Assembly (NCBI GenBank): GCA_028689495.1
Contig: JAQTWB010000001.1
Location: 124,001-188,000 of the forward strand
Direction of reading: 5' to 3'
DNA from: a bacterium
GTDB taxonomy: Bacteria; Bdellovibrionota_C; UBA2361; SZUA-149; JAQTWB01
DNA: 64,000 bases
Shown: piece after piece, positions 453 to 41,523 of the stretch
Numbering within the stretch: the stretch's first letter is position 1
Layout of the letters: each line of letters begins with the position of its first letter
Notes under the pieces: generated by a model
Told to the model about the DNA's origin: nothing
The model's database searches: none
The model's input: the letters and a program-made list of their open reading frames with translations, nothing else
Made by a program: the position numbers and the translations under genes

Positions 453-1727
453 TTGGTCGACATTCGTAGATGGTTACCACGACCAAAAGGGGTGAACAGT
501 CATTCCGTTCGTCCGGGTGATGAGTCCTGGCCGGAGGGGAATGCCGATTTTGTATGGCGTAAGATGCAGGCATTTATTGCAAATTTTTGTCATTGGAGGG
601 TTTCGCGGCTCTGTCGTTTTGCCACAGCTGTTTGTGCAATTGTCTGTTCCTTCCTGTTGGTAATGAATGACGCTAATGCCGAGAGCGCACCCACAAGTCG
701 CGGCGCAGCAAATTTTTATGATGCTTTGCAGGTTAGAAATCCGATTCAACCGCTGGCACGTGAGTATAAAGACTACCGAAATATCAATGTTGTTGAAGAG
801 CAGGTAGCGAAAGGAACTGCGGAAATCTCCGCAAAAGGAAAAGCTGTAAGAGAAAAAACCGAAAAGGCAAAGGCTGCGCGCGAGCGAGAGATTGATGAGA
901 TCACTCGAACCAAAGTTGAGGCTGACGCTCCAAAAAGTTTTATCAACCTTCATCGCCATTACCAGGCCGGCGAGATAGATTTGGCGCGCGAATCAGCAAG
1001 CCAATACGTAGAATACTGGGTTAACCTGCTTTTTGATACCAAACAGATAAGCGGCCTGATTCTCGAGGCAATGATCGCCAATGGCATGATCGATGAAGAA
1101 CAGGCCCAGGGGGCTGTACAGTTTCAGGATTGGATGAGCGCCAGTGGGCGGGAAAAGAGCGGCGAAAGAATCAGGGCTACTCATGACCTTTCGCTTAAGC
1201 GTATTGTACCGGACACTGAGGCCAAAGCGGAGGTTTATTATTTCTTCGCGCTCAATTGCCAATATTGCCGTGATATGGCGCCAGATGTCGAGCGTCTGCG
1301 CCGGGCGTTGGAGCAGGATAAGCGGGTATCAGTTCAGGCACTCGCAGTAGGTAACCCGCCGCGTGAATGGGTAGAACAGTTCAAAGACTACGCCGACTGG
1401 CGGTTGCCGGTATATAACGGCGACACGATTGCCAAGGACTTGCATATTGGTTTTCTGCCATCTCTGGTTGTGATCTCGCCATCTGGAAAAACAAGTTATG
1501 TAAAAACCGGGCAAGTCACCTTTGACCGTATGTATGAATTTGTACGCACCGTGCAGGGGCTTCCAACGCAGGAGTCAGCAGCGATAGCTCGGATTAAGAA
1601 TACGCCAATTGGTTTCATGGAGCGGAAAAAGAAAGGTGTGACTGGACTGCGCCTTGCATCTGGAAGTGGTGTGGTGCCAGAGGTAGCGGAGAAGAAAGTT
1701 GAAAGAATAATGCCGAGAAGGTTTTAG
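453..1727 (+). CDS. TraF-like periplasmic thioredoxin-fold conjugation/T4SS protein (start may be nearer 564, giving a signal peptide)
   Basis: C-terminal thioredoxin-like region with CxxC ('VYYFFALNCQYCRDMAPDVERLRRAL… IGFLPSLVVISPSGK'); hydrophobic signal 'FATAVCAIVCSFLLVMNDANAESA'; operon with TraG-like genes. Confidence 0.6.
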   Translation: MVDIRRWLPRPKGVNSHSVRPGDESWPEGNADFVWRKMQAFIANFCHWRVSRLCRFATAVCAIVCSFLLVMNDANAESAPTSRGAANFYDALQVRNPIQPLAREYKDYRNINVVEEQVAKGTAEISAKGKAVREKTEKAKAAREREIDEITRTKVEADAPKSFINLHRHYQAGEIDLARESASQYVEYWVNLLFDTKQISGLILEAMIANGMIDEEQAQGAVQFQDWMSASGREKSGERIRATHDLSLKRIVPDTEAKAEVYYFFALNCQYCRDMAPDVERLRRALEQDKRVSVQALAVGNPPREWVEQFKDYADWRLPVYNGDTIAKDLHIGFLPSLVVISPSGKTSYVKTGQVTFDRMYEFVRTVQGLPTQESAAIARIKNTPIGFMERKKKGVTGLRLASGSGVVPEVAEKKVERIMPRRF

Positions 1728-1755
1728 CGATGATTAGAGCAAGAAGAGAGGCGAT

Positions 1756-4416
1756 ATGAAAATGTCAAAGCTATCAAATAAGGGCCGCGTTAGTGGGGGT
1801 GGCCAGATATTGTTAAGTTTTCTCATTATTGGTTTGCTGAGCATACTGCCTGGCGCGCCTGGGGCACTTGCTGCGCCAATGGATACCAATACCCAACAGC
1901 AGGCAATCCAGCAGGTAGTGAACACATTTAATCGTGGTGGAAATCTTTCCCCAAATTGGCAGCAGACGTTTACACAAATGTTCTCCGGTAATTCAACTGA
2001 TCTGCAGGGGTTGACGCAGAATATCGTTGGCCAGCAATTAGGGAATATATTTTCAGGGAGTAGCAAAGACCTTAATGGTGTGGTCAGCAACCTTATTAAT
2101 AGCGGTGATTTTGGCGATTTGGCGGGGAACGTCAACACTTCAACCTTAAGCAACTCGCTGATGAATGGTGCTCTCGGGGATATGAGTAGTTATCTTTCAG
2201 GGAATCTGGCAAACAACATGCAGCAGAATATTGGCGGGAATATGAACGATATTCTTGGTCAATTAGGCAGTAGCCCAACAAGTCAGCAATTTAACGATGT
2301 GCTCGGGCCTTACCTGAATAATTCATTTAGCGGTATCACAGGTAGCGGAACTGATTTTAACAATATGCTTAATAACAGTTTTAGTGACACCCTTGGCAGT
2401 CAGCTCGGTGGTTCAGGCTTGGATGTGAACAGTTTCTCGAGTGCTCTGACGAACAATACAAGTGGAATGTTTAGCGGTGGAGTGCAGGATGCAATAAGTA
2501 ATGGCAGTTTTCAGAGTAATATTACATCTGGGGTAACTCAGGGAACTATCGAGTCATTGGATGGGAAGTTGACACCTCTTGCTTCGTTTATGCGTAACGT
2601 CGAAACGACTACTTTTGATCCTCCCAGTTATGCAAAAAAAGCCCAGGATAACTATTCAGGGACAAGTCAGGAGTTATACGGATTTCGACGAACCGACAAG
2701 GCCTTTGGCGCTATTGTGCCAGGAGAGCTGGAACGGACCAGTAGTGTCGATGCTGAGCGTCATACCTATCCGATGTTGACAATGATGACCAAATACGTTG
2801 ATAAAAACCAAAGTTATGATGGCGAGAATGAAAATACTGTAAATATCAAAGAGCCTTCATTGCTCTTCTCTAACATGGCAGTCGATGATGAAATACTCAA
2901 ATCACAGATGATGGTATTTCAGAACGTAGCTGATATTGAGCAAAGTTTTCTCCGTGATGAAAAGACACGTGATCGCTATCTCGATATGTTAAATACTGTG
3001 CGGGCAATTGCCCATATGACACTTTCTTATCTTGACCGGACTGTCGCTGCCGGACTTTCGACGATTCAGCAACAGGCTGACATGTCGGTTAATAATTTCC
3101 TTCTTAAGCAGATTTCCTGGCACACCAAGGAGATTGCCAATCCCGAGCGCAAGGATTTGTATAATGACGTTGATGGAAAGTTTGAAGCCTGCATGTGGTC
3201 ACACGGTTGGGCCAATAACGGTAGTGCCGATGATTATGAAGGGCGACTGGGTGGAACAAAGAAAGCTTTTGATAAATGGACTGAAAAAGATGCCAAAGAT
3301 CCATATCTTGCCTACGTTAAGGCAATGTGCAGTGATCCCAACGATAGCGACAATGAATGCGGAAAGCTCTACGATGCATCCCATTCGTTGATTCATTATT
3401 GCACTTGTTGTGCAGAGCGCAGCCTTGAGACTAACCAGGGAACAAATCTTGAATCGCTTCAAGATGACAGTATCAGACACAAGAGTCTTTGTGGGTCATG
3501 GGCTAAAGATACAAAGATAGGTGGTCAGGCGATAGCCAGCGGTGACGATGTTGAAAACGCCTACAGCATGGTTGAGCGAGTACTCTTTGGACTTGGTCGT
3601 ATGGAAGGAGAACTGGAGAATCAGTACGTTTCTAATGAATTCGAGGCATCCGATTTATTGAACGCTGAGTCACAGATGGTATATCTGTTTGAAGACATGT
3701 ATGGAGATTATTGTACTGTTAAGTCTCATAATCGATTAAAGCGATTTTATCATTTCCCGCGATTTAGCGTTGAGCAGCAGGTGAAGATTATTCGTGATGG
3801 GCAACCCGAGGAATGTGAAGGTGGTAATGGATATTTTTTCTGCTCAGGAGATAATGGTGATGGCGAACTGAAGTATGGAATCTGTCCCGCCTTTCAACAG
3901 ATTCTCGCTATGGTGCGAGAAGATAAATTCGCTTCAGAATACGAAAGCCGTCAAGACGAGATTGAAGAAATGTGGAAGGAAGCTTCTCTGGCATTTCCAC
4001 TGACGATTGACGACTTCATCAACGTAAAGGAGCAGGCTGCTCAGTCAGAATCGTATAACAACGAGGAGCAGATGAGTTTTGTCGATCACTGGTGTGATGC
4101 AGCGGCTATTGTCGCTTACGAGAAAATTCATAACACCATGGTGAAGCTTGCTGAAGACCATCTGAGTTTAAATACGACTGTTCGTGAAAGTGAGCGGGCG
4201 ATGATTCATCGATTGACGGGACGGGTGGATCAGGCGCTGGCAATGGCTAACGCCGAAGCCGGTATGAATCCGGCCGCTGCGGCTTTGCTTGAAGTTGCCA
4301 AGGCTCGCGCCAGGAAGGAAAAAGCGGAGGGGTCGGCCGCGGCGTCAAGCAGTGGAGCGCGAACTGCATATGATCGTTTGAACTCACATGGCTTTCTTGG
4401 TGGTAGCGCCGGTTAG
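1756..4416 (+). CDS. Large secreted protein with N/G/S-rich N-terminal half and Cys-containing C-terminal half; TraH-position gene, function unknown
   Basis: 886-aa ORF with signal-like N-terminus ('ILLSFLIIGLLSILPGAPGALAAPMD'); operon position between the TraF-like gene and TraG-like paralogs. Confidence 0.55.
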   Translation: MKMSKLSNKGRVSGGGQILLSFLIIGLLSILPGAPGALAAPMDTNTQQQAIQQVVNTFNRGGNLSPNWQQTFTQMFSGNSTDLQGLTQNIVGQQLGNIFSGSSKDLNGVVSNLINSGDFGDLAGNVNTSTLSNSLMNGALGDMSSYLSGNLANNMQQNIGGNMNDILGQLGSSPTSQQFNDVLGPYLNNSFSGITGSGTDFNNMLNNSFSDTLGSQLGGSGLDVNSFSSALTNNTSGMFSGGVQDAISNGSFQSNITSGVTQGTIESLDGKLTPLASFMRNVETTTFDPPSYAKKAQDNYSGTSQELYGFRRTDKAFGAIVPGELERTSSVDAERHTYPMLTMMTKYVDKNQSYDGENENTVNIKEPSLLFSNMAVDDEILKSQMMVFQNVADIEQSFLRDEKTRDRYLDMLNTVRAIAHMTLSYLDRTVAAGLSTIQQQADMSVNNFLLKQISWHTKEIANPERKDLYNDVDGKFEACMWSHGWANNGSADDYEGRLGGTKKAFDKWTEKDAKDPYLAYVKAMCSDPNDSDNECGKLYDASHSLIHYCTCCAERSLETNQGTNLESLQDDSIRHKSLCGSWAKDTKIGGQAIASGDDVENAYSMVERVLFGLGRMEGELENQYVSNEFEASDLLNAESQMVYLFEDMYGDYCTVKSHNRLKRFYHFPRFSVEQQVKIIRDGQPEECEGGNGYFFCSGDNGDGELKYGICPAFQQILAMVREDKFASEYESRQDEIEEMWKEASLAFPLTIDDFINVKEQAAQSESYNNEEQMSFVDHWCDAAAIVAYEKIHNTMVKLAEDHLSLNTTVRESERAMIHRLTGRVDQALAMANAEAGMNPAAAALLEVAKARARKEKAEGSAAASSSGARTAYDRLNSHGFLGGSAG

Positions 4417-4448
4417 TAGGGCTACGGAACCAGCGAACTTGAGGTTAT

Positions 4449-7400
4449 ATGGCTGATACTGGTGTAGTTGGTTATTCGGGCAATGTTGGGGCGACTCTTG
4501 TTGCTTCGGTGTTGGAGAATGCCGGCTATGTTACCCAGGGCTACATGCTTGATGCCTTTGAACCGTGGTTTCATTCCGGGGGGCAATTGGTGTTACTGCT
4601 TGCGGCTGCGGCGGGGATTGCTGCCGTGCTGGCGTTTGGCAGTTTTCGCATGGCGGGCTATCTGCTCTTTGCCCCGGGGATGTTCTATTTTCTTTTGTAC
4701 TCGCGAACCGGAATGGAGGAGGTGCGCTGGAAAGTCGGTAGTGGTGAAGTAAAGAGCGTTCAAGATCAGTACAACGGTTACATCGAGAAGTACAAGTTCC
4801 CCGAAGAACAGTTGCAGCTACCCTGGTTTTTTGTCTGGTTCACCAAGCTTGCCAGCGACATGACGAATACTCTGACTCAGGTGATTCTCAATGAGCTTAA
4901 AGACCCACAGATTACTTTCGTCGCTCGAAATGAGTTGTTGAACATTGTCAGAAATGCTGTCCCAAATGATGATATTACCTACAAGTTACTTACTGATGCT
5001 CTTTATGGCAGTTGTGCCCCTCTGACCAATGCGTATATGAAGTTATCCGATCCCGAACTGAGCGGCGGGAATCTTAATAAATTACAGCTTGGCAGTATGG
5101 CCAATGACTATTCAAAGAAAGAATATGAACGGCTGACAACTGTAAAAAATGAACTTTTATCCAAACGAAATGAATTTTTAGAGAGAAATATCACGCCGTC
5201 ACTTTCAGTGCGCGAATATGCTTGTGACAAGCTGGCTGCTTTTCCTTCCGGGTCCGGGCAAACAACTGAACCAGGGTATGCCAAGCTTGAGGAGTATTGC
5301 AGTTGCAAGCGTGCTGGTGGGAGCATCTGCAACATGGCCAGTGGGCAGGACCAGTTCACCTGTGGAGATGCATTTGATATTACGAAAGACGCTATTCGCG
5401 ATGATATGAGTAAACTTGTAGCCAAGATCAAGGAGGTCCCTCCGGGTCTTGGCGATGCCGCCAATTCGCAGGTGTCCGAGGAGACATATCAGACTCTTTG
5501 TTATCAGGTGCAAGAAAAGCTCTACGGAATTAACAATCGCGAACAGCTGGTTGGAGGAGTGGACGAAGATTGCAGTCTCGTTGATGTGATGAGCGTATTT
5601 GCTTTACGCAATGTTCTCAGTGCTGAGTATTCTTCGCAGCAGTCTTCCCTGCAGGGTTCGATTAACAATCATTTGAAAAATTTCAAAGAGCGTGCCGGGT
5701 ATGTCTCTGGTGAGAATCATCGGATAGCCACCGGTTTACCTCAGATTGATTCAGGGGGGCAGATTACTGCAGATACCAAAAGATACGGCCTGCATCATAT
5801 TGAGCCTGGTCTTGGTGGGCATATGGTAGAGTTTGGCGATGACGGCAAAAAGCGAACTGTTTTTCAATATGGCGATCGAATGGAGAAACAGGAAACCCAG
5901 GATGTAGAAATAATGGGGCAGTTTGAGGCTTCATTTAAGGCGAATCAGACATTTTTTTCGAAGAGTATGGTGCAAGAGATTTACACCTATTCGATGAATG
6001 TACCCTATTGGCAGGGGGTGATACTATTCCTGCTATCTATCGCTTATCCGCTATTTTCCGTAGTTATCCTGGTGCCGGGGCAGGCACCGAGTTTCTTTTA
6101 TCTTCCGTTAGCCTGGCTTTGGGTCAAGAGTTGGGATGTCGGTTTTGCTATGGTCATGGTGCTTGATCAGGTGCTTTGGAACTTGATGCCGTCTACTGAA
6201 CATGCATTTAGCGATATCAACCAGACTTGTGACAAGGCTGACGATTGCGTCATTAATGCTCTGCAGGCGGTGCTTTCTGTCGACCCCACTTATCATGTGC
6301 AGGTGCATAACTCGATTGTTGGTTTGGCGATGAGTATGGTGCCGCCGATGACCGCTGCCGTACTGTTAGGGGCGAAACGCGGAATGGTCTCCTCATTTAC
6401 TGAGCCCTTGGAGAATGCAGCAAAAGAAGCGGCGGCGATGCAACAGCTGTCGGAGGCGTTACCGATATCTACTGCTCGTCAGGAACAGACAAAAGGACCG
6501 ATCGCTCTTGCGGCAATGGCGCCTTACAAAGATGGTGGAGTCTGGGATCAGGCCTACAACTATGCATTTAACAAAGCTTTGCCGATTGTTGGCGCAGGTA
6601 AAGCGATTGGGGCGATCAAGGATATTCAGGGGAAAATGTCGCCGGCCGAAATGCAGAGACTTACTGACAGATTCAAGTCGGCGAATAGTTTGGCCGATCT
6701 GTCTGCGGCCGATCAGAAAGCGGCAACTGATTTGTTTCGCAAGATCACTTCCGTACAGGGTCTTGGCGCTGTAGGTAGTGCCGGACTTGAGGCTTGGTCG
6801 GATGCGATGGGTCTTGCCAAGAATTACGCCAGTGCAGCGGCGGAGTTTCAGTCGGTGCATGACCAGTATTTTGCCGAGTACCTCGGTAAGTATGGGCATT
6901 ATGCAAGTAACATGCAGTCCGCCGCGGCCGCTCTGGACGTATCGTCGGGAGGGTTGGGTTTTGGTAGTTTCGAAATTCCGACGACTTATGGCAATGCAGA
7001 ATTTTATGATTCATGGCGTAAGTTTGAGATGGCGACTTATGCTTTGGATGCTGATGCATGGCAAAAAGCAGTGTCTAGTGGGGCTGCTTCTGATTTCGCC
7101 AAAAATTCGCCCCAGGAGAGCCTGTATAAGGGCTTTTTGAAGGGCGCTGGGGGAGTTCTCGGCGCCGGGATCGCTATCAATAGGGGAGATGCGGCAATTG
7201 ACGAACTCGACCTGGCTCGAAAGGGAGATCTAGCGGACGATAAAATGAATTTTGGTCAGAAGTTGGCCAGTAATCTCAAGCCGAGTCCTCTGACTTCCGT
7301 GTATCTTAATGAAAGCAGATTTTTCCAGCCGGACAAGCAAGATGAGTTTCGTGATTTGTTTTTTGATATCGCGGGGTCCAGTAATATTCTCGGTCCAACG

Positions 7401-7751
7401 TCAGTTGAAAAAGTGCCGGGAGACGGGATCGTCGATTGGTCTGGTGGTAGTGGAAAGATCGATTTGCAGCGGGTTAAGGATTATTCCGATTTTCAGGAAA
7501 GCCTGTTTTCTCCTTATGTATCTGGACTTCAGGGGATGGACAGTTTTCATACGGCAAACGGTGAGGTCTCAGTTATGCTGCGGCCGGAAGAGTCTAATGG
7601 GAAAACAGGATGGAACAGCCTGTTGCCAAATGATTGGTATGATATTCCCGAGATTATGGGTAATTCGAAAGAATTCCTTAACATTGGAGATGGTTTGACC
7701 GGCCTTGAATCAAAGCGCGCGGTGATCGGCCCAGACGCAGGAGGTAACTAG
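4449..7751 (+). CDS. TraG-N/DotA-like polytopic membrane protein, paralog 1
   Basis: N-terminal 'VGATLVASVLENAGYVTQGYMLDAF' and core 'VPYWQGVILFLLSIAYPLFSVVILVPGQ…WLWVKSWDVGFAMVMVLDQVLWNLMP' shared with the next four ORFs. Confidence 0.6.
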   Translation: MADTGVVGYSGNVGATLVASVLENAGYVTQGYMLDAFEPWFHSGGQLVLLLAAAAGIAAVLAFGSFRMAGYLLFAPGMFYFLLYSRTGMEEVRWKVGSGEVKSVQDQYNGYIEKYKFPEEQLQLPWFFVWFTKLASDMTNTLTQVILNELKDPQITFVARNELLNIVRNAVPNDDITYKLLTDALYGSCAPLTNAYMKLSDPELSGGNLNKLQLGSMANDYSKKEYERLTTVKNELLSKRNEFLERNITPSLSVREYACDKLAAFPSGSGQTTEPGYAKLEEYCSCKRAGGSICNMASGQDQFTCGDAFDITKDAIRDDMSKLVAKIKEVPPGLGDAANSQVSEETYQTLCYQVQEKLYGINNREQLVGGVDEDCSLVDVMSVFALRNVLSAEYSSQQSSLQGSINNHLKNFKERAGYVSGENHRIATGLPQIDSGGQITADTKRYGLHHIEPGLGGHMVEFGDDGKKRTVFQYGDRMEKQETQDVEIMGQFEASFKANQTFFSKSMVQEIYTYSMNVPYWQGVILFLLSIAYPLFSVVILVPGQAPSFFYLPLAWLWVKSWDVGFAMVMVLDQVLWNLMPSTEHAFSDINQTCDKADDCVINALQAVLSVDPTYHVQVHNSIVGLAMSMVPPMTAAVLLGAKRGMVSSFTEPLENAAKEAAAMQQLSEALPISTARQEQTKGPIALAAMAPYKDGGVWDQAYNYAFNKALPIVGAGKAIGAIKDIQGKMSPAEMQRLTDRFKSANSLADLSAADQKAATDLFRKITSVQGLGAVGSAGLEAWSDAMGLAKNYASAAAEFQSVHDQYFAEYLGKYGHYASNMQSAAAALDVSSGGLGFGSFEIPTTYGNAEFYDSWRKFEMATYALDADAWQKAVSSGAASDFAKNSPQESLYKGFLKGAGGVLGAGIAINRGDAAIDELDLARKGDLADDKMNFGQKLASNLKPSPLTSVYLNESRFFQPDKQDEFRDLFFDIAGSSNILGPTSVEKVPGDGIVDWSGGSGKIDLQRVKDYSDFQESLFSPYVSGLQGMDSFHTANGEVSVMLRPEESNGKTGWNSLLPNDWYDIPEIMGNSKEFLNIGDGLTGLESKRAVIGPDAGGN

Positions 7752-7756
7752 TTACT

Positions 7757-9673
7757 ATGGCTGCTTCTACCGGAACATTGGTCGCCGCGGCGCTTGAGTC
7801 TGTCGGCTATTATGCTCAAGAACAAGTCCTGACTCAGCTTAATACATTGATCTGGGAACTTGCGGCTCTTTTTTATGTCGTTGTCGGACTGATGGCGATT
7901 TATTCTTATGTCATATACGGAAGCTACGATACCGCAGCCTGGACACTCGTTGCTCCGGGGGTTGTCGCCTTTATGTTGCTGGCTCGGACCGAAAGTAGTG
8001 GGGTTGAGTGGAGATTCGGCAATTATCTTGACCAGTCGAACAGTGAAGTGGAGATGCTTGACGATGCGGGGCTTGTGCCTTCCTCGGAGGTATCTTGGGT
8101 ATTCCATCGGTACAACGAATTGGTTTCCTCAATCACAAGTAATGTAATTGCGATATTGGTAAATGGCGATGAAGTGAAGCGCCAGGTCCAGTTCATGGCG
8201 CGACCGAGCTTGATGGATAGCTTGTTTCGCGCCCAGCTCGATAATCCCGGACTGGAAAATTTGCTTAAGGTAGGACTTCAGGGAACCTGTGGTCAGGCGA
8301 TGGAGGCAATGCGTGATAATGCTGCAATGCATCGAAACTCGATTACTGCCGCCTATCGCAAGGATACAGCTGAAGTGCTTCGGGCGACCAAAGTGCTTTT
8401 TTATGAAACTGATGTAAGTGTTGGAAATACCGGGGCGGAAGCTTCCAGCATGCGTAGTTTTATGCAGCTTCAACTTCAGGACTATGGTGGAGATTTGGAG
8501 CAACAGGTCCGGAATTATTGTGGGTATGCTGAAAATGCACAGCAAGGACAGAAATCCTTGCTTGAGGATTTGGAGGCTTTTCGTGACGGTAGTACTGATT
8601 CCGCCACGTGTGAAATGATCTGGTGTGTCTCTGCGCTCAGTTTGCGTCGCGAAGTAGAGCGAATTATGAAAATGAGTGAACGGGAGAAGGTCGCCCGCAT
8701 TGGCACTGAAGCGGAGCGCGATGCCTTGATTTCGGAAATGTGGGATCACATTGCTGTAAAAATGCGGCCGGCAGATGGTATCTCCGATGTGAATGCCGAT
8801 GCGGCGATTATCCCCACCGTGATTGGTGGTATCCTGATGCGCAAGGTGCTCAACTCTCCTGCGGCAGTTGATCGAAATTCCCAATTTGCCGAGCGTTCCG
8901 GATATTTCACCTCCCCTTATCGTTACAAGTATAATCAGGCGCCAGGTGCGGCTGTGCGGACAGATGAGCTGCAACATCAGGATATATCGGCTACTGCCAT
9001 GCAGTATGAAGTGATGGAGTTGGCTCTGACCCTGCCTTACCTGCAAGGTATTATTCTCTATGTGCTGGCCGCGACTTACCCATTTTTTGTTTTGGTGGCC
9101 CTCGTTCCGGGGCGCGGGACAGCAATTATAGAATGGGCTGCCTGGTGGGCTTGGGTAAAAATCTGGGATGTCGGTTGGGCGGCGGCGATGATTGTCGATG
9201 ATGTTATTTGGGATTTGATGCCTCATCATTCAGCTTTCGATCCAACTCTCGATCCCAGTCATGGACCAGTTACCTGGCTTCAGGCGGCATTCCATGACGA
9301 TCCGGCTTATTCTCTGACTATGTATTATATGCTTTTGAGCACAATGTTGGTCGGTGTGCCGCTTGTTACCGGGCAGATGATATTAGGTAGTAAAGCAGCA
9401 CTGGCCCAAAAATTGGTTCAGGGCTTTCACGGCATGGCGCAGAAGGTTGGTGGCTATGCTGGTCGGACCAAACAGCAGCTTTCGGTTAGTGAAGCCACCT
9501 CCGCTCGGGTTGGTGGTGAAGTCTCATCTTTCAAGGATCTAAAACAGGTGGCACAGGATAATGATAAGTCACAATCATCTGGAGGGGGCGGAGGTAGCAA
9601 GGCTGGGGAAATGATGAGCCAAAATTCGGGCAATGGGGCACAAAGTCAGGATAATTCTCATAACAAGGAGTAG
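7757..9673 (+). CDS. TraG-N/DotA-like polytopic membrane protein, paralog 2
   Basis: 'TGTLVAAALESVGYYAQEQVL' and 'LPYLQGIILYVLAATYPFFVLVALVPGRG…WAWVKIWDVGWAAAMIVDDVIWDLMP'. Confidence 0.6.
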   Translation: MAASTGTLVAAALESVGYYAQEQVLTQLNTLIWELAALFYVVVGLMAIYSYVIYGSYDTAAWTLVAPGVVAFMLLARTESSGVEWRFGNYLDQSNSEVEMLDDAGLVPSSEVSWVFHRYNELVSSITSNVIAILVNGDEVKRQVQFMARPSLMDSLFRAQLDNPGLENLLKVGLQGTCGQAMEAMRDNAAMHRNSITAAYRKDTAEVLRATKVLFYETDVSVGNTGAEASSMRSFMQLQLQDYGGDLEQQVRNYCGYAENAQQGQKSLLEDLEAFRDGSTDSATCEMIWCVSALSLRREVERIMKMSEREKVARIGTEAERDALISEMWDHIAVKMRPADGISDVNADAAIIPTVIGGILMRKVLNSPAAVDRNSQFAERSGYFTSPYRYKYNQAPGAAVRTDELQHQDISATAMQYEVMELALTLPYLQGIILYVLAATYPFFVLVALVPGRGTAIIEWAAWWAWVKIWDVGWAAAMIVDDVIWDLMPHHSAFDPTLDPSHGPVTWLQAAFHDDPAYSLTMYYMLLSTMLVGVPLVTGQMILGSKAALAQKLVQGFHGMAQKVGGYAGRTKQQLSVSEATSARVGGEVSSFKDLKQVAQDNDKSQSSGGGGGSKAGEMMSQNSGNGAQSQDNSHNKE

Positions 9674-9728
9674 TAAGGTTAGTTTTACTTGATTGAGTAA
9701 GTGCTTGAAATAATTAGATGAGGTTTCT

Positions 9729-11768
9729 TTGGCAGCTTCAGACGAATTAATTGGGGCGGCAGGGCAGTATATTGCTGCTGTGCTTGAGACGGCAGGTCTC
9801 TATGCGCAGTCCTACGTCCTGACTAATTTTGCCACTTTTTTCAGCTCGGTTGGTGGCCTTGTGTTGACCGGGGCTTTTTTCGCTGCGGTTGTGAGCTATG
9901 CAATTTATGGCAATTACTCTCAGATTCGTTATTTTTTGATTGGCCCCGGCCTTTTTTTCTGGATGCTGACCAATACTACTACCGTGCAGTCAACCGCAAA
10001 TCAGTTTGGTGACCGTTTGCTGCCTGACAATACTGCCCGGATGCAGGAGGTGCTTGACGGAGCTGCTGATGGAGATTTCAGCAATGGGGCGCAGGTCTCA
10101 TATGCTTTTGTTATTTTTGATGACTTGATTTCCTACGTCATTCAGAAAACGGTCAGGGTTTTTGTTGATACCGCTCAGCATGAAGACGTGATCAGTATCG
10201 CTCGAGCCCGAGCGATGTCGCATATTGTTATGAGTCGGGCTAAAGATAGCGAGTTTTTGAAATTCTTTACGCTTAATGTTGTTGGTAGCTGTGGGGAGAG
10301 ATTTCAGCTTGCCAAAGACCTGGGACGGCTCGAAAGAGATAGCACTGGTTCACAGGTCGATCAAAATGAGATCGCACGCAAACAAGCGAGTTACGATGCT
10401 TTGGCGACTCGTCCGGTGTATATCAATAAACAGATTCTCGATTATGTTAATGAGAGGACTGGCCAGAGCCTGGTCTCGCCGCAAACCTGTCAAGGTGTCT
10501 GGGACAATACTGTTACTTTGCTTAAACAGCTCGCAGCGGAGGAATTTGACAATATAGGACCCAGTGAATCGGAGAATGAAATGTTCCCCGGGATGGACTG
10601 GGATAAAGTTAAAACAGAAGTAAAGCTCGCCCTGGCCGAGGGAGATTCCGGAGAGGACAAGGCGATAACGGTTCTTGCTGCCTATTATCTCTATAACACC
10701 CTTCGATTCAGTAATTATCAGAACTTCGACAAGACATCAGGCAGTGTTGCTTCCCAGGTAGCAAGTCGCGGTGATTGGGTTGGCTCAGACTACACTGCTA
10801 TTTTTGGTGAAATGATGAATGCCGAAACAGCGTCGGAGCAGATGACAATTGTCTACTTTGCTGCCGTCCTTCCTTATATGCAGGGAATAATGCTTTATTT
10901 TCTGACAATGGCATTTCCTTTTTTTGCACTTTTCTTGCTGGTGCCGGGGAAAATGCGAGCATTTTTTGTCTGGGCGCATCTTTGGGTCTGGGTAAAGAGC
11001 TGGGATGTCGGGTTCGCCATTCTTCATATCGTTCGCGAGGTGCTTTGGCATTTTCTGCCGAATGCCGGGAAGTCACGATTCGCTAATCAACCAGGCCAGG
11101 AATTGTTCAACAAAATTGATTGGAGCGATCCGGCAAGTGTATTTAACGTAGTTTATACTTATGATCCAAGCAATTCGATGGCGACATATTTTATGATTGT
11201 TTCCTTCCTGACACTCAGCGTGCCGATGTTCACAGCCTATTTTTTTAACGGCGCTCAGGAACTCTATGGTGCTTTGGGCGTAGGTATCGATCGTATGGCT
11301 CGGGAACGATTCGGTTCTCGTCGTCGTTTGATGGCTCATAACCAATACAAGGATACAGAGCGTATTGCTGTCGAGCGACAGGAAGCTCTGGGCGAGAATC
11401 TTGGTGCTGCCATGGCTTATAACAATCCGGGCTCATTTAACGGCGAGGTCCTCTCGGGTGGAGGAGATCGTTCCCATGAAGCAAATATCAAGGCCGGAGC
11501 CTCTCTTGGCCGCGCTACCGGTTTTATGAACTCGGCTACAAGGGTCGCATCTCAGCGAAGAATGGGACACACCGGTCGGGGTATGGATTTCAAACAGTCT
11601 GATATGAACACCGATGATGCACGGAAACAAAGTATGTTTGAAAAGGAAAACAAGGCTAATGTTTCAGGTGGCTCTCCACTTAATCCATATCGGGTATATC
11701 GCGACAACCAGTATGACAAGAGTGTGAAAACAGGGAACTCGGGTGACGATGATGCAGCGGGCAATTAG
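9729..11768 (+). CDS. TraG-N/DotA-like polytopic membrane protein, paralog 3
   Basis: 'AGQYIAAVLETAGLYAQSYVL' and 'LPYMQGIMLYFLTMAFPFFALFLLVPGKM…WVWVKSWDVGFAILHIVREVLWHFLP'. Confidence 0.6.
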   Translation: MAASDELIGAAGQYIAAVLETAGLYAQSYVLTNFATFFSSVGGLVLTGAFFAAVVSYAIYGNYSQIRYFLIGPGLFFWMLTNTTTVQSTANQFGDRLLPDNTARMQEVLDGAADGDFSNGAQVSYAFVIFDDLISYVIQKTVRVFVDTAQHEDVISIARARAMSHIVMSRAKDSEFLKFFTLNVVGSCGERFQLAKDLGRLERDSTGSQVDQNEIARKQASYDALATRPVYINKQILDYVNERTGQSLVSPQTCQGVWDNTVTLLKQLAAEEFDNIGPSESENEMFPGMDWDKVKTEVKLALAEGDSGEDKAITVLAAYYLYNTLRFSNYQNFDKTSGSVASQVASRGDWVGSDYTAIFGEMMNAETASEQMTIVYFAAVLPYMQGIMLYFLTMAFPFFALFLLVPGKMRAFFVWAHLWVWVKSWDVGFAILHIVREVLWHFLPNAGKSRFANQPGQELFNKIDWSDPASVFNVVYTYDPSNSMATYFMIVSFLTLSVPMFTAYFFNGAQELYGALGVGIDRMARERFGSRRRLMAHNQYKDTERIAVERQEALGENLGAAMAYNNPGSFNGEVLSGGGDRSHEANIKAGASLGRATGFMNSATRVASQRRMGHTGRGMDFKQSDMNTDDARKQSMFEKENKANVSGGSPLNPYRVYRDNQYDKSVKTGNSGDDDAAGN

Positions 11769-11822
11769 TAACTGAAAGATGAGAGTGGATGTGACTTTTT
11801 ATTAGAGAGGGTTTGACGGGTT

Positions 11823-13982
11823 ATGGCGGTTATCAATGACGACATTATTGGCAGTGCGGGAGCTCTTGTTGCAGCCGCGATGGAGACTGCGGGTCATTAC
11901 GGCCAGTCTTATCTGCTTGATGTTGTTAATGGGCCACTTGGTAATACATATGGAGCGTTCTTCTATGTAGTTTCCGGAATCATAGCGATTGTTTCTGCGG
12001 CGATTGGCGGCAAGTATAAAGTTGCCGCCTGGTTTTTACTCGGACCACCGATTGTTTTCTTTATATTGGCGGCTCGGGTCGATTCTTACGGTGCTAGATG
12101 GGCCAAGTTGAATATTACAAATGAGACTGTGAGGGAGAGACTACAGACTGAGAGTGTTACTGAACTCAATCGTGGTGTTTCTGATATGTCGGCACCGGCG
12201 CGAATTTCGTGGACATTTTATGCGTGGGCACGGCTTACGGATTCAATTGTCAATTCGGTGGCTAACGGCATTCGCAACTATACGGTCACCAAGGATCTCG
12301 ATCAGGTGATGCGCTCCAGTGAACGGCTTACGGCTCTTTACGGATTGCAGATTGAAGATCCGCAGTTGAATGAGTTTATTCATCTTGTAACCAATGACCG
12401 CTGTCGGCCCTATCTTGCTGCAGCACTAGATTCTACTGCTGGAGTCAAAGCTTTTACTGCGGCGCAGTATTCGGCGAGACTTGACGAGTTGGGTGGTCAG
12501 ATTAAGGTCGGCAAAGGAGATGCTGTCCACGATCGGATCAATCGAATGAATGATGCCGGCTATTTTGGTAGCGGTTTTACGCAAAAAGAACAGTATAGCT
12601 GCAAAGAGTTATATGACATGTCATTTGAAGCATTGCGTTCTCATGCTAACACGCTGATTAAGAAAGTTGCAGATCCGCAGACGGGAATGGTGCAGGCGAC
12701 CACAGGAGATAATGATTCTGCCGAAGAGTGGAATACTCAGCTGATAAACAACTACGAGAGATTACAAAATAAGTTTGGTCCGGGGAACATCCCGACAGAG
12801 GAGAAGGCGCGCTCGATGGTCAATGCTGTAGCGATTCGCCTTTTAGGCAACGCGATGAGCACGCATCATCCAGATTTAATCAAGTATCGCAGCGACTATA
12901 TCCAGGAGCCAGAAGAACTTCATCTTGTTGAAGATAAGGGATATGCAACAGAGCTCAGTCGACTTTTTGTTGCCAGCGAATATACAGAAAAGACCCGCTT
13001 TGTAACTTTGATGTTGCAGATGCCCTATCTTCAGGGCGCTCTTCTTTATGCTCTTTCGATGACGTTTCCGTTGTTTATCATGGCAATGATTATACCAGGG
13101 AAGCACACAGCGCTGGTCACCTGGATGGGCTACTGGTTCTGGGCAAAGAGCTGGGATATCGGGTATGCGATAGTGATGTTGGCAGACGACCTTTTTTATT
13201 ATCTCTTACCAAGAGGCCCGGCGATGTCTGATGCGGTTGCGGCGGACCCTGGACAAGCATTTCAAGTGATGTTTCGTGGCGACCCTACCTACTCTTCATA
13301 CATTTATTACCATATTTTGGCGGTGCTGGTTGGTGCCATACCGGTGGTCAGCGGTATTTTTATCAAAGGAGCCGGTAAGGAGATGGTGAGCGGTATTGGC
13401 TCAAAAGCCGAGCAGCTGGCGATGCAGACCGGTAAATCATCTGGTGTGTATGTTTCCCTTGCCAATACTCAGGGCCAGGTAAATGAAGTAAACCATAGAA
13501 AACTTGAGGTATTCGCCGAAGGTGTGCACAGCGGGATGAAGGAACCATGGGTAGAATTGTCTCTAGTCGCTCCGATGGCGCTTGGGCAGGGTGGGGTATC
13601 TGCGGTTAGAGGGTATATCGATCAGAAGTTGAAAGACAGCGGAAATACAATGACTGCGGAACAGAGACAGAAGTTTGGATATGTCGCCAAGATGCTTACG
13701 CCAGTAGGGGCGATGACTGATGCGCAGTTAAAATCCAGAGCTGAACAGATCTCAAGTGCTGCCAAGAATTACATCAGTCTAAAAGGGGATAATGCTGTTC
13801 AGGAATTTATGTCCCGACCAGAGAGCTTAGCGGTATACAATTATGGTGTTTTGCTAGGTTGGTCACAGCAGTCAGGTGTGGAGAAACCTTCGGCACTGAC
13901 CGATGTGATTGTCAATCGCGCAACAAGGACTTGGTATGCGGGCTATGCAAAATCAACCCGAGCGGCGACGCATGCGAAATAG
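11823..13982 (+). CDS. TraG-N/DotA-like polytopic membrane protein, paralog 4
   Basis: 'AGALVAAAMETAGHYGQSYLLDVV' and 'MPYLQGALLYALSMTFPLFIMAMIIPGKH…WFWAKSWDIGYAIVMLADDLFYYLLP'. Confidence 0.6.
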   Translation: MAVINDDIIGSAGALVAAAMETAGHYGQSYLLDVVNGPLGNTYGAFFYVVSGIIAIVSAAIGGKYKVAAWFLLGPPIVFFILAARVDSYGARWAKLNITNETVRERLQTESVTELNRGVSDMSAPARISWTFYAWARLTDSIVNSVANGIRNYTVTKDLDQVMRSSERLTALYGLQIEDPQLNEFIHLVTNDRCRPYLAAALDSTAGVKAFTAAQYSARLDELGGQIKVGKGDAVHDRINRMNDAGYFGSGFTQKEQYSCKELYDMSFEALRSHANTLIKKVADPQTGMVQATTGDNDSAEEWNTQLINNYERLQNKFGPGNIPTEEKARSMVNAVAIRLLGNAMSTHHPDLIKYRSDYIQEPEELHLVEDKGYATELSRLFVASEYTEKTRFVTLMLQMPYLQGALLYALSMTFPLFIMAMIIPGKHTALVTWMGYWFWAKSWDIGYAIVMLADDLFYYLLPRGPAMSDAVAADPGQAFQVMFRGDPTYSSYIYYHILAVLVGAIPVVSGIFIKGAGKEMVSGIGSKAEQLAMQTGKSSGVYVSLANTQGQVNEVNHRKLEVFAEGVHSGMKEPWVELSLVAPMALGQGGVSAVRGYIDQKLKDSGNTMTAEQRQKFGYVAKMLTPVGAMTDAQLKSRAEQISSAAKNYISLKGDNAVQEFMSRPESLAVYNYGVLLGWSQQSGVEKPSALTDVIVNRATRTWYAGYAKSTRAATHAK

Positions 13983-14009
13983 TCGATGGGGAAATTGAAG
14001 GAGTAGATC

Positions 14010-16613
14010 TTGATTACTGTTGGGTCAAGTGGATCATACGTTGGTGCTGTGCTGGAGACCTTGGGGGTCCATTATCAGTCCTATTTGCTTGATCAGCTGG
14101 CAACTCCTTTTGCGACAAGTGTCGGTGGTCTTGTTTATGTCGTTGCCGGTTTTATTGCCATTGGCTCTTACCTGCTTTCGGGGAAGGCCCAATCGAGTAT
14201 CTGGCTGCTCGCCGCTCCGGGGATATTTCTCGCAGTTGTGCTGCAGCGAACCGAAGTAAGTGGCTCACTTTGGAAGTTCGGAAATGAAGTTCGTAGTGAT
14301 GTTATGGTCGATAGTGGACTTGATCCACATTTGACGGAAGACGCCCGGGGTGGTGCAAGGGTTTCTTCGCTTTTTGCTTCTTACGATCGCTTGGTGAGTT
14401 CTGTTGTTTCCCAGACGGTGGCGGTACTGCTTGCCGGGCGGGAGAAGCTCGACTATTCGTTTATCGTTCGGGCTGAGATTCTTTCAGCGATGGAGGCACC
14501 TTTCGCCGGTAATGACGGTTTTCGTTCGTTGGTTCATACGGCATTGGGTCGTGATTGTATGGACTTTGCGATGACGGCAAAAAAAATTGCTGACCCGGAA
14601 ATACCGGCGCTTGAGCGTTGTGAGGCGGCGAAGCATTACAAGGATCTGGGAAGTTCCAGGCAGGTTGGTCTGACTGATATGGCCAAGGAATATGTGGCCA
14701 ATGAAATCTATTTATTTTTGCCACATTTGATGACCGAGGAGATTACGCCAGATCCTGGTTGTGCGGTGCGAAGTGTTATGGACCTTTGTGGTCAGGCACC
14801 ATCGGGGCTTGCTGATACCGATGCGACAGTTGGGGCACAGGAGCTTTATTGTGATAAGGAAGCAGAAGCGAAGGCTGAGCAACAGAAACTTTGTGATGCG
14901 GTGATGCGCAATCAGCAAATCATGAATGCAGTCTATAACCAGCCGGTCGTAGGTGCTTCTGGAACAGAGAGTGCTTTGCAGAGAGCGCTTAATCTCAGTG
15001 GAGCCCAGTATGAACAATATCGAAAAGAGGCATGGGAAAGGGTCGAAAAGCCCTATTACTGTCATGAGATCTGGAATTTGGCGTATGTATCGCTGATGCG
15101 CGAATCGTTGATTTACCTGGAATCAGTTAATCAGCAGGCTTTTAACGCCGACTTGACGAATGTAATAACGCAGGCTGAGCAGGGAGCTGATGCCGATCTT
15201 CGGTTAAGTCTATGTGCTCCCGAATATCAGGATAACATGCCTGTGGCATTTAGTGAGGCGTTAAAAATTCGCGGTGCGCAACATCCATTTGATGTTGTGC
15301 GTCAGTTGGCAAAGAAACTTTTTCGCAATGAAAAGGAATATAAACCTCTTGCGGTAATTGCGGATGAATATGCCAAGCGCTCGGATAAGTTCAGTCGTGT
15401 TGGTCTACCTGATGAAAATAAGCTGGCGCACGTAGAGCGAACGAGGCTCAAGAATAACGAATTGCGTGAAAGGACCGGTTTGATGCATTACGCGGCATCG
15501 ATGCCATATTTCCAGGGTCTTGGATTGTATTGGTTGTCGATTACTTATCCGTTGTTTGCGATCATGATTCTCGTGCCGGGCAAGCAGAATGGATTTTTTA
15601 TGTGGTTCAAGTTGTGGGCCTGGCTTAAATCCTGGGATATCGGTGTGGCTGTGGTGATGATACTTGACGATGTGTTGGTCTCACTGTTTGGCAATATGTT
15701 GATGCGAGATGGTAATTCTCTGGTGCACGAACTGCCGGCAGACATTGGCTCAGCTCTTGCTTCTCTTGAGACAATCGATTCAACTTTTAATGTCGGGCAG
15801 TATTATTCAATTGTTTCTGCGGTGTTGATGATGGTGCCAGTTGTTAGTGCGCAAATAATTCTTGGGGCGGCTGGTGGGGCCGGAGTACTTGCGCAGGGCA
15901 TGCAGCGATTAACCTCACAGAGGGGCGGTGATTTTGGCGGTATCGGTGGTATTCGTAGCATGATGGAGGCACCGCCACAGATGAAGTCGGTGCGGGCGCT
16001 TGGGCAAGATGTTCACGCTTTGAGTGCCGCGACGTCAGCTAAAGTTGGTGAGTTGGGTGGGACGCAGGCGTCAAATATGTATGGTAACGTTTTTGGTGAA
16101 TCATATCGAACGGATCGAAAATTTGTAGACCGGGAAGATGAGCTCTCGGTATACAAGGGCGGATTTAATGCGGCAGCTGCGCTTAAGGGATTGAATAATG
16201 CGGCGGGAGGCTCTGCCGATAGTTGGTTCGGTGAAAAAGAGTTTATGGGTGTTAATAGGGGAACGGACGGTAGCCCATTGTCCAGTGTGCTTGGTGGTCT
16301 GTCTTCGGCAAGCTATAAGGTTGGATCTATGTCACGCGATCAATTTAACGCATTTGGCAGGCTTGATATGGATGCGGCAAACTCTCAGGTGCCAAGTACA
16401 ATTGGCCATAGTGATATCGCCGGTATGGGGGTGAACCAGGCTCTTCCTCTGCCTCAAGATTACGATCCGGCCGGTAATACCAACGCCAGAGATGCGGCAG
16501 CCTTTAATAAGGAGAAGACAGTGGATCTGCAGCAGGCAACAATTGACTTGGTTAACAGGTCAATGAAGGCTGGATTCAGTGCATCTGGTGATCCGGTGAA
16601 GAAAAAGCCCTGA
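14010..16613 (+). CDS. TraG-N/DotA-like polytopic membrane protein, paralog 5
   Basis: 'SGSYVGAVLETLGVHYQSYLLDQL' and 'MPYFQGLGLYWLSITYPLFAIMILVPGKQ…WAWLKSWDIGVAVVMILDDVLVSLF'. Confidence 0.6.
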   Translation: MITVGSSGSYVGAVLETLGVHYQSYLLDQLATPFATSVGGLVYVVAGFIAIGSYLLSGKAQSSIWLLAAPGIFLAVVLQRTEVSGSLWKFGNEVRSDVMVDSGLDPHLTEDARGGARVSSLFASYDRLVSSVVSQTVAVLLAGREKLDYSFIVRAEILSAMEAPFAGNDGFRSLVHTALGRDCMDFAMTAKKIADPEIPALERCEAAKHYKDLGSSRQVGLTDMAKEYVANEIYLFLPHLMTEEITPDPGCAVRSVMDLCGQAPSGLADTDATVGAQELYCDKEAEAKAEQQKLCDAVMRNQQIMNAVYNQPVVGASGTESALQRALNLSGAQYEQYRKEAWERVEKPYYCHEIWNLAYVSLMRESLIYLESVNQQAFNADLTNVITQAEQGADADLRLSLCAPEYQDNMPVAFSEALKIRGAQHPFDVVRQLAKKLFRNEKEYKPLAVIADEYAKRSDKFSRVGLPDENKLAHVERTRLKNNELRERTGLMHYAASMPYFQGLGLYWLSITYPLFAIMILVPGKQNGFFMWFKLWAWLKSWDIGVAVVMILDDVLVSLFGNMLMRDGNSLVHELPADIGSALASLETIDSTFNVGQYYSIVSAVLMMVPVVSAQIILGAAGGAGVLAQGMQRLTSQRGGDFGGIGGIRSMMEAPPQMKSVRALGQDVHALSAATSAKVGELGGTQASNMYGNVFGESYRTDRKFVDREDELSVYKGGFNAAAALKGLNNAAGGSADSWFGEKEFMGVNRGTDGSPLSSVLGGLSSASYKVGSMSRDQFNAFGRLDMDAANSQVPSTIGHSDIAGMGVNQALPLPQDYDPAGNTNARDAAAFNKEKTVDLQQATIDLVNRSMKAGFSASGDPVKKKP

Positions 16614-16633
16614 GCTCTTAAGAGGGCATTTTT
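16608..16633 (+). terminator. Putative rho-independent terminator overlapping the stop of TraG paralog 5
   Basis: GCCCT…AGGGC stem followed by ATTTTT. Confidence 0.4.
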
Positions 16634-25813: not shown

Positions 25814-27109
25814 ATGAAGCTACTGATTGTTGATAATACAGCAGAGGGACAGTCACGTTGCGCCAGACGCATTGAGTCGTTCCATCAGAGTGATGTGGAG
25901 ATGCTTGATTTGCGTGTGAAGCTTGTCTTAGGCAAGGATTTGTTGCAGTCACTGGATGAGGCGGATGTTCTCGTACTAGGGTCTGGTCTGGGAGAAGAAG
26001 GGGCAACGTTAGCTCGTAATGCGCTTAACCGTATGCCATGGCTTCATGTAATCATGTATGTTTCAGAAGTAGCCTATTCGGGCGGCGCCTTTCGGTCGGC
26101 TCACGCTGCTGGTGTTCGAAAGGTCTTGCCGGATAATGCCTCACCCCTTGACTTGCTTCAGGAGCTGGTAGCTATTTTTCAGGAGTTTCGCCGGGAAGGG
26201 CGAGTACGAGAGGGGCGTGTCGTCTGTGTTGCTCATGCAAAAGGTGGTACAGGTGCAACCAGTATTTGTGCAGCTTTGGCGGAAGTTTGTAGTGTTCATC
26301 GGCGGCGTTCCATGCTCTGGGACCTTGATGTTGAAACAAGGGATCTTTGTCGGGCGTTGACGGTTACTGGGCCGACCGCAAAGGTAGTAAGTAGTTGGGT
26401 AAATGGTACCAGAGAAATTAATCGGGACAGTTTGCAGGATGCGCTGATACCGGTAAGTCAGGATGTTTCAGTGCTCATGCCGCCGGACAGTATGGCGGAA
26501 GCGATGGATTTGGTGTGTCACACTGACGGGATTGAGATTTGCCAAAATATACTTGATATCGCTCGGGTAGTGCATGATGTGATTCTTATTGACACGGGAG
26601 GTCGCATTGGACCGGCCACGGGTGCTTTGATGCGGGCCGCGGATGAGGTCGTTGTTGTCATTGATGACACCATTCTTGGTCTTACTGCGCTTGATTTATT
26701 TTTGAGTTACGCCAAGGCTCTTGTTTTGGGGCCAGAGCGACTAAGTTTTGTTGTGAATGGTTATACGGGTGAAATGTTGGCGCTTTCTCAGATTGAGGCT
26801 GAACTTGAACCAGCCCATCATTTAGGTGAGAAGCCTTGGAGCCTTCCGCAAGTGCCACTTGACCCAAAAGCTGTGCTTTGGCCGGGTAGTGGACGGACGT
26901 TATATAGTATCGGTCAGCGTTCCACTCGTGCTGCCCTTGAGGGGATCGCCCGTCAGCTTCAGCTGATTCCGGATAGTGGTGCCTCTGCTTATTCAGATGA
27001 TGTACAACGTTCTTCCTGGTGGGAGAAGCTGAGGAGTCGTAAGGCTGAGTTCCCCACAGGAGGGGGGAGATATGGGGGTGAAGGGTCATTTGGTAACGAG
27101 GAAGGTTAA
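25814..27109 (+). CDS. TadZ/CpaE-like protein (receiver-like N-terminus plus ParA/MinD-like ATPase domain with atypical Walker A)
   Basis: 'VVCVAHAKGGTGATSICAALAEV', 'DVILIDTGGRIGPATGALMRAADEVVVVID'; Tad locus. Confidence 0.8.
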   Translation: MKLLIVDNTAEGQSRCARRIESFHQSDVEMLDLRVKLVLGKDLLQSLDEADVLVLGSGLGEEGATLARNALNRMPWLHVIMYVSEVAYSGGAFRSAHAAGVRKVLPDNASPLDLLQELVAIFQEFRREGRVREGRVVCVAHAKGGTGATSICAALAEVCSVHRRRSMLWDLDVETRDLCRALTVTGPTAKVVSSWVNGTREINRDSLQDALIPVSQDVSVLMPPDSMAEAMDLVCHTDGIEICQNILDIARVVHDVILIDTGGRIGPATGALMRAADEVVVVIDDTILGLTALDLFLSYAKALVLGPERLSFVVNGYTGEMLALSQIEAELEPAHHLGEKPWSLPQVPLDPKAVLWPGSGRTLYSIGQRSTRAALEGIARQLQLIPDSGASAYSDDVQRSSWWEKLRSRKAEFPTGGGRYGGEGSFGNEEG

Positions 27110-27222
27110 AAAAAGAGGCTAGTGGGAGAAAAGTTCCTGTGCTAGCGTAAAAAAAGCTAAAGAAAATTTTAGTTATAGCCGAAGAATGCTCTGGGTGTTT
27201 TCGGGGTTTTTCGTGGCTCGGT

Positions 27223-27238
27223 GCCCTTCGGGGCTTTT
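27223..27238 (+). terminator. Putative terminator between tadZ and the Flp pilin gene
   Basis: GCCC-TTCG-GGGC-TTTT. Confidence 0.5.
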
Positions 27239-27294
27239 GTGTGGATAGTCCCGCAACTGGTTTCCGGGAGCGGTCAGTCAAAAAGGGAAAGAAA

Positions 27295-27486
27295 ATGGAA
27301 AAAGAAATGGTAAATGTAGTTGAGAAGACAGAGGAAAAGGAAGAAGGCGCATCGATGGTTGAGTATGTGCTGATGGCTGCTCTAGTATCAGTTGTGGCAA
27401 TTACTGCGATTACTTTCCTCGGTCAGCAGACCAGCAAAACATTCAGCCGTATTGGTTCGGATGTTGAGGCGGCTAACAACACATAA
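27295..27486 (+). CDS. flp: Flp/Fap-type pilin (Tad major pilin candidate; ORF track start 27241)
   Basis: 'KEEGASMVEYVLMAALVSVVAITAITFLGQQTSKTFSRIGSDVEAANNT'; G/A(x)4EY prepilin motif. Confidence 0.88.
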   Translation: MEKEMVNVVEKTEEKEEGASMVEYVLMAALVSVVAITAITFLGQQTSKTFSRIGSDVEAANNT

Positions 27487-27510
27487 TATTTCAGATGAGT
27501 TGATAAAAAA

Positions 27511-27533
27511 CAGGGCTTCGGCCCTGTTTTTTT
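27511..27533 (+). terminator. Rho-independent terminator after the Flp pilin gene
   Basis: CAGGGC-TTCG-GCCCTG-TTTTTTT. Confidence 0.88.
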
Positions 27534-27539
27534 GTTTGC

Positions 27540-27590
27540 ACTGCTCGCACTTTAGTTTTTCCGATCCACAACACCTCATTCCCGAGCAGT
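27540..27590 (-). repeat. 51-bp dispersed repeat family B, copy 2
   Basis: Reverse complement reads ACTGCTCGGGAATGAGGTGTTGTGGATCGGAAAAACTAAAGTGCGAGCAGT; same length and TIRs as 22040-22090. Confidence 0.75.
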
Positions 27591-27973
27591 ATATTGGTCT
27601 TCGGTCGCATCCGCTGGCGCGGCTGCTTCGATATACCGCCTCAAAAAACAGCATAAGCTCTCGTCTCTCATATTCTCAGTAATCCTGAAAGTTTGTTCTG
27701 CCCATACCCATTCATATTTGCACCATTAAACATCCTTGCCGCGTCTAAATAAACACTGGGAACGGTATTTTCGGGATGCTGATACGGCATTTCGCCACCG
27801 ATAGCCCATGGGAATGAATTTTGCTCAAAAGTAAGAATAAGCAAAATATCGTTTAAGTTTGTTGGCAGACAATGCCGATTTTCAGAATAGTGATGATAAC
27901 CGACCAACGCAGAAAATAGATCGAGTTGAACTATATACTGTTCTGTTAAGGTCAATTTTGGGGAAAGGATACA

Positions 27974-28906: not shown

Positions 28907-28922
28907 GTGACGATGGATAATA

Positions 28923-28948
28923 AATGAGGCTGAACGCTCAGCCTCATT
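28923..28948 (+). terminator. Hairpin/terminator candidate after cpaB
   Basis: Perfect 11-bp stem AATGAGGCTGA-ACGC-TCAGCCTCATT. Confidence 0.65.
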
Positions 28949-29004
28949 TGCATTATCACCTCTTGGTCAGTGAAATCACATAAGGTTGTAGTTAAGGAAT
29001 TTGT

Positions 29005-30483: not shown

Positions 30484-30549
30484 AACTTTTATGCTCGAAC
30501 ACCATGGTTATCTGCGGTTTTGATTGATGGATATTTAAAAGGGGGAAGA

Positions 30550-31566: not shown

Positions 31567-31591
31567 ACTTTTACCTTCGCGGAGCGCGTCA

Positions 31592-32524: not shown

Positions 32525-32633
32525 TGTAGTCGCGTAGTGAGTGAAATTGCGTGTTAACAATTGGAGGTGAATTATCGAAGTGATCACCTTCGAATATAGT
32601 TATCAAGTTTTGTTTGTTGTGAATATTTGTCGG

Positions 32634-32821: not shown

Positions 32822-32842
32822 AAATAATTAACTGGGACCGCT

Positions 32843-35017: not shown

Positions 35018-35041
35018 ATTGCCAATTAATTTCAGGAGCGG

Positions 35042-37531: not shown

Positions 37532-37549
37532 CGAATTGGAGATTTAACT

Positions 37550-39151: not shown

Positions 39152-39196
39152 AGACAGCAAATATGATTTTAATTGAAAGTGACATTGGAGGTAAAT

Positions 39197-40366: not shown

Positions 40367-40372
40367 AGAAAT

Positions 40373-41278: not shown

Positions 41279-41282
41279 TAAT

Positions 41283-41507: not shown

Positions 41508-41523
41508 TAGTCAGGAGAAGGTC

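Follow-up and report, generated by a model that had tools for sequence, protein, structure and literature searches.

The 64,000-nucleotide stretch of Bdellovibrionota_C DNA analyzed here (the window) contains five consecutive genes for divergent paralogs of the TraG/VirB6 type. The same five genes, in a fixed order, are present across at least eight families of the window's order, and independent assemblies agree on this arrangement. We consider it fairly probable (about 0.58) that the products are five non-interchangeable TraG/VirB6-type subunits of one F-like type IV secretion system (T4SS) that assemble as a mixed ring.

The array (4449-16613, plus strand) closes an apparent seven-gene operon (453-16613, plus strand). 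The gaps within the array are 5, 55, 54, and 27 nt, and the two upstream genes show spacings of 28-32 nt; promoter-like matches in the apparent operon do not exceed the shuffle expectation. The features are:

453..1727, plus strand: thioredoxin-fold exported oxidoreductase, TraF/TrbB-like; 424 aa by the longest ORF (TTG start uncertain), CQYC motif
1756..4416, plus strand: 886-aa exported protein where the F-like gene order has TraH; conserved there in relatives (alignment)
4449..7751, plus strand: TraG/VirB6-like paralog, position 1 (G1); 1100 aa, long C-terminal tail; clade support 90.4/95
7757..9673, plus strand: TraG/VirB6-like paralog, position 2 (G2); 638 aa; TraG_N 5e-6, below the curated cut-off; clade support 99.2/99
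9729..11768, plus strand: TraG/VirB6-like paralog, position 3 (G3); 679 aa; TraG_N 1.8e-9, 37.6 bits against a cut-off of 36.1; clade support 98.8/100
11823..13982, plus strand: TraG/VirB6-like paralog, position 4 (G4); 719 aa; TraG_N 1.1e-5, below the curated cut-off; clade support 99.2/100
14010..16613, plus strand: TraG/VirB6-like paralog, position 5 (G5); 867 aa; paralogy by BLASTP; clade support 99.8/100
16614..16632, plus strand: hairpin resembling a terminator, with a T run, past the last gene; weak evidence from a consensus match of a kind about as common in shuffled sequence

The product of the first gene matches Pfam Thioredoxin_8 above the cut-off (2e-6) and TraF below it (0.013), and its homologs lie upstream of the TraG array or of the single TraG in relatives. 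Pfam and NCBIfam searches with the 886-aa protein returned no matches, and its assignment as TraH was rejected after a negative hhalign comparison with F TraH. The locus looks chromosomal, in a 3.4-Mb draft genome, and is flanked by housekeeping genes, namely, ahcY upstream on the same contig and transaldolase and zwf downstream; a mobile or plasmid origin was rejected given these flanks and a tblastn search of 72,556 plasmids that produced no match.

All five ORFs have the coordinates and lengths reported in the initial annotation and contain no internal stops. Each of the 10 pairs of window paralogs is homologous by BLASTP (best E-values from 1e-20 to 1e-50; 20-40% identity), and the five-way alignment contains 36 invariant columns, including PY-x-QG, PG, W-x-W-x-K-x-W-D-x-G, and two cysteines. 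Some of the motifs originally listed as shared are looser, with 'APG...RT' found in three of the five paralogs (G3 has GPG...TT and G4 has GPP...RV), 'LVPGK' varying as PG[K/Q/R], and 'DD...LMP' complete in G2 only. Artefactual splitting of longer genes was rejected: each copy is full-length and open, and the single-copy orthologs in relatives are ordinary genes of 1000-1200 aa rather than fusions of all five.

The proteins share a common anatomy: one or two N-terminal hydrophobic segments are followed by a middle region of ~300-450 residues, a hydrophobic core with high conservation, and a tail whose length is ~65-435 residues in the window paralogs (~65-500 across array proteins). Two cysteines are conserved in the middle region of essentially every full-length copy. 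Similarity between middle regions is mostly position-specific (138 of 148 same-position pairs versus 185 of 842 others, with the single-copy homologs taken in as a group of their own), and tails are alignable almost exclusively within one position (42 of 162 same-position pairs versus one of 919 different-position pairs, in counts that take in single-copy pairs).

In searches with Pfam TraG_N (PF07916), G3 exceeds the curated cut-off, G2 and G4 give significant matches that fall short of it, and G1 and G5 show no match. TraG_N matches 16 of the 23 family members in a broader alignment, where no other family recurs; a six-frame scan with TraG_N yielded no single stretch above the cut-off. With all five proteins homologous to G3, the TraG_N membership originally proposed is supported, and the HMM searches together with BLASTP argue against five ORFs of unrelated families. 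The genome that contains the window yields no match to Pfam TrbL/VirB6 (PF04610), hhalign to F TraG alone remains below significance, and the array proteins have no sequence match in the PDB. AF2 modeling gave a pLDDT of 71 for paralog 2 and 89.5 for the core. Two Foldseek searches against the PDB returned nothing at E ≤ 0.001, VirB6 and DotA included, and the affinity to DotA suggested in the initial annotation is left with no significant match; the DotA-IcmX chain and the R388 stalk chains surface only at E of 6-7 with low TM-scores. The weak Foldseek matches 7o3v and 9ngy were set aside as evidence (the matched chains of 7o3v may be VirB5). The case for equivalence to VirB6 thus comes from TraG_N, gene order, and gene company, with structure matching contributing nothing; F TraG itself is listed as the VirB6 equivalent, pentameric and located in the stalk, in a 2025 review (PMC12624023).

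Copy numbers were counted in 47 genomes with a DNA pattern for W-x-K-x-W-D-x-G; a control with the reversed pattern gave zero. The maximum per genome is five, attained within the window's order in G000, G001, G002, G004, G005, G006, G010, and G013. One to four copies were found in G007, G008, G009, G011, and G012, in which the arrays are fragmentary (short contigs or an array spread over several contigs), and the pattern census did not find the array genes in G003 and G014 of the same order. Wherever an array is read through with both flanks (the window, G004, G006, and G013), it comprises five genes and is preceded by homologs of the TraF-like and 886-aa genes. In other orders of the phylum, most genomes carry a single copy; G021 and G042 have two, and several have none by pattern. 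The two-copy genomes (G021:C64:8749-13868; G042:C37 and C248) belong to one genus of another order, a separate small duplication. In the MAG Co_bin.93 (G010), positions 1 and 2 are each present in two distinct versions (L008, L012), on contigs that differ in coverage; this MAG probably represents a mixed bin and not a genome with a second array.

The vicinity of the array in relatives includes additional genes. In G004, a 259-aa ORF without a Pfam match lies between array positions 2 and 3 (L054:11628-12404). In many relatives, the array is adjoined, often on the opposite strand, by a gene for a ~510-590-aa protein with a similar N-terminal motif around 'LD-x-[ST]-x-x-S-x-G' (L011:3489-5129, L014:2977-4710, L016:6454-8097, L017:6522-8162, L019:2679-4451, L054:2212-3735, L056:3491-5122 and 5761-7413, and L058:10072-11763); the one copy tested had no Pfam match, and none adjoins the array in the window.

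In the maximum-likelihood tree of the N-terminal domain and core of 42 array proteins, rooted on single-copy homologs, five clades coincide with gene positions 1 to 5 (UFBoot 95, 99, 100, 100, and 100, respectively). The position labels require 5 changes on this tree, compared to a mean of 26.6 (minimum 21) when shuffled within genomes, and for 42 of the 42 array proteins, the closest relative is the same-position protein of another genome. Mean core identity is 37-42% within positions versus 27-28% between them, and the paralogs are about 72% divergent. Recent or homogenised copies were rejected as an explanation because the tree sorts by position, not by genome. Within one genus, three positions show 79-88% amino-acid identity with dN of 0.08-0.15, which is consistent with purifying selection; dS is saturated, hence no dN/dS is given. 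Position clades that extend across families, together with one copy in other orders, trace the array to a single 1-to-5 expansion at the base of the order, before the families split, with all five genes retained in order. Tandem duplication with specialisation, as initially suggested, is strongly supported by these five position-specific ortholog groups, compared to one copy elsewhere.

The rest of the secretion machine is encoded away from the array. The window's genome has one TraC/VirB4 gene (2.4e-6, below the cut-off) and one TraB/VirB10 gene (1.7e-13, above the cut-off), which are adjacent at the end of another contig (G000:C15). TraB and TraC were each detected in 45 of the 58 genomes searched, with TraC in 45 of the 47 genomes of the phylum, and the TraB-TraC block recurs in relatives with TraE-, TraK-, and TraV-like genes; the matches to these three, beside TraB-TraC of one relative, are weak and all below the cut-off but in the right gene order. 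One relative has a TraD-like coupling protein near TraB-TraC, and a VirB2-pilin-like gene is present in the window's genome. TraU was not found in this genome and is weakly matched in two of the 58. Compared to the near-universal TraC, relaxases are sporadic: PF03432 was detected in 4 of 30 genomes (one of these being the window's own, on another contig) and PF08751 in two of 30. Given one TraB and one TraC at a phylum-wide locus and the sporadic relaxases and TraU, we infer that an F-like T4SS, non-conjugative and inherited vertically, is typical of the phylum as a whole; the same sporadic distribution suggests protein export or pilus assembly, rather than conjugation, as the function of the machine. 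At the TraB-TraC locus of G006 (L081:1641-4056), there are also genes for a membrane protein with a bacterial PH domain (bPH_2) and for a coiled-coil/SH3 protein, which are unusual neighbors in an F-type T4SS.

In T4SSs, the base of the stalk is a pentamer of VirB6-family proteins, on which VirB5 and pilin are believed to assemble, with the substrate believed to pass through it. Pentamers have been described for the VirB6 homolog TrwI of R388, at the stalk base (PMC9259494), and for DotA of Dot/Icm (PMC12857230). Because VirB6 homologs are pentamers, and one TraB and one TraC are accompanied by five TraG genes that are obligatory and share an apparent operon, a mixed ring would be the simplest arrangement. 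All five paralogs would be made from one operon and disulfide-bonded in the periplasm with the aid of the thioredoxin-like protein encoded first, a route suggested by the conserved cysteines and the upstream gene. They would then come together in a single mixed ring, in the simplest case a heteropentamer containing each paralog once, and their divergent C-terminal tails would give the stalk five different faces. We put the composition of exactly one copy of each paralog at somewhat under even odds, and its stricter form, an obligate heteropentamer with a fixed neighbor order at the stalk base, in which five-fold symmetry would give way to a fully asymmetric stalk, is likewise offered tentatively. 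The hetero-oligomer idea of the initial annotation accordingly persists as the best fit, given the single TraB/TraC and the pentamers of VirB6 homologs; the part concerning co-assembly is what we infer. Several observations count against this explanation: two Foldseek searches gave no significant match to VirB6 or DotA, hhalign to F TraG alone did not reach significance, and in G003 (92% complete), TraB and TraC are present and the TraG array is undetected. Furthermore, the number of paralogs need not equal ring size, because rvhB6 genes number five in Rickettsia, yet Anaplasmataceae have four.

The array might, instead, supply alternative modules, with each paralog forming a separate homopentamer on a common core machine for different conditions, substrates, or targets. 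The divergent tails would fit such modules and, with a single TraB/TraC set, swapping would have to occur at the level of TraG. However, variable-target modules are expected to show gain, loss, and shuffling, whereas no array with an optional member was seen and the order is fixed across families; moreover, the genes share one apparent operon with no excess of promoter-like matches. The 'alternative mating modules' of the initial annotation fit less well for the additional reason that no conjugation relaxase travels along with the system, and we consider separate homopentamers unlikely. We assign a similarly low probability to an unequal division of labor, whereby one or two paralogs would make up the true VirB6 ring and the others would be accessory inner-membrane or periplasmic proteins, such as stabilisers, exclusion factors, or adaptors, as may likewise be the case for rickettsial VirB6 paralogs. 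The strongly different tail lengths in the window and the surface exposure of Anaplasma VirB6-3 and VirB6-4 (PMC7648143), which implies that VirB6 paralogs can sit elsewhere, are in line with this possibility, but all five proteins retain the invariant core residues and the two middle-domain cysteines, as would be expected for equivalent places. The tandem layout is also the usual product of unequal crossing-over, such that neutral duplication driven by repeats, or artefactual splitting, with no particular function for the copies, could be envisaged. This explanation is refuted by the conservation pattern and merits almost no weight: the genes are full-length and open, the strongly divergent paralogs nevertheless have orthologs retained across eight families, the within-genus dN at three positions is low against saturated dS, and independent assemblies agree.

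The closest precedent for the array is the rvh T4SS of Rickettsiales, with five tandem VirB6 paralogs (rvhB6a-e) in Rickettsia and four (virB6-1 to -4) in Anaplasmataceae (PMC2653234, PMC7648143). In both cases, the VirB6-type paralogs lie in tandem, have diverged strongly, carry long variable flanks, and are chromosomal and vertically inherited, and the T4SS genes are split over separate chromosomal sites. The rickettsial copies, however, are of the VirB6/TrbL type and belong to a vir-like (P-type) system, beside virB3-virB4 and with duplicated VirB4/8/9, whereas those in the window are of the TraG_N type and belong to an F-like system, with a TraF-like gene nearby and a single TraB/TraC; the Pfam TrbL model (PF04610), without a match in the window's own genome, sets the array apart. 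Given this difference in family and system, and the different bacterial lineage, the expansion looks independent of the rickettsial one. The array resembles the F plasmid in its TraG_N matches, in the order of thioredoxin-like gene, TraH-position gene, and TraG, and in the company of TraE/K/B/V/C-like genes. Unlike F, which has one traG, it comprises five genes and is chromosomal, the TraH-position gene is not recognizably TraH, TraU is absent, and relaxase is sporadic. R388 TrwI/VirB6 and Legionella DotA are the proposed functional equivalents, as a pentameric stalk base or protochannel; these, however, are homopentamers from one gene, and the array proteins have no significant sequence or fold match to them.

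In the open-access literature, we found no paper that describes tandem TraG arrays for this lineage or puts forward a heteropentamer for VirB6. An obligate heteropentamer, if true, would be, to our knowledge, without precedent among T4SS stalks and would suggest an equivalent interpretation of rvhB6a-e; why Rickettsia retains five divergent VirB6 genes has been a question since at least 2009. With a second, apparently independent five-gene expansion, this time in an F-like system and with the number constant across families against one copy in other orders, the idea that paralog count equals ring size becomes testable. In addition, the array is indicative of an F-like T4SS that is chromosomal, apparently non-conjugative, and conserved across an entire uncultured phylum.

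Two other gene clusters in the window deserve mention. At 25814-43211, Tad/Flp-type secretion genes (RcpC/CpaB, a T2SSE ATPase, and two T2SSF) run straight into a type III secretion (T3SS) set, which includes an FlhA/SctV-family protein, an SctJ-like lipoprotein, a FliN/SctQ-like C-ring protein, FHA-domain proteins, and a weak match to CdsG; a Ser/Thr kinase and a PP2C phosphatase are encoded directly upstream. This region resembles the gene company of chlamydial-type T3SS, which suggests interaction with a host or prey. An 829-aa protein encoded within the T3SS cluster (35042-37531) matches a protein kinase domain solely in the C-terminal half of that domain, has a HEAT_2 match near its end, and is a possible pseudokinase. 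Further downstream lies a compact type III polyketide synthase cluster (55288-61718), with genes for an FAD oxidoreductase, a YceI-like protein, a chalcone/stilbene synthase-like enzyme, a methyltransferase, another ORF, and an MMPL transporter.
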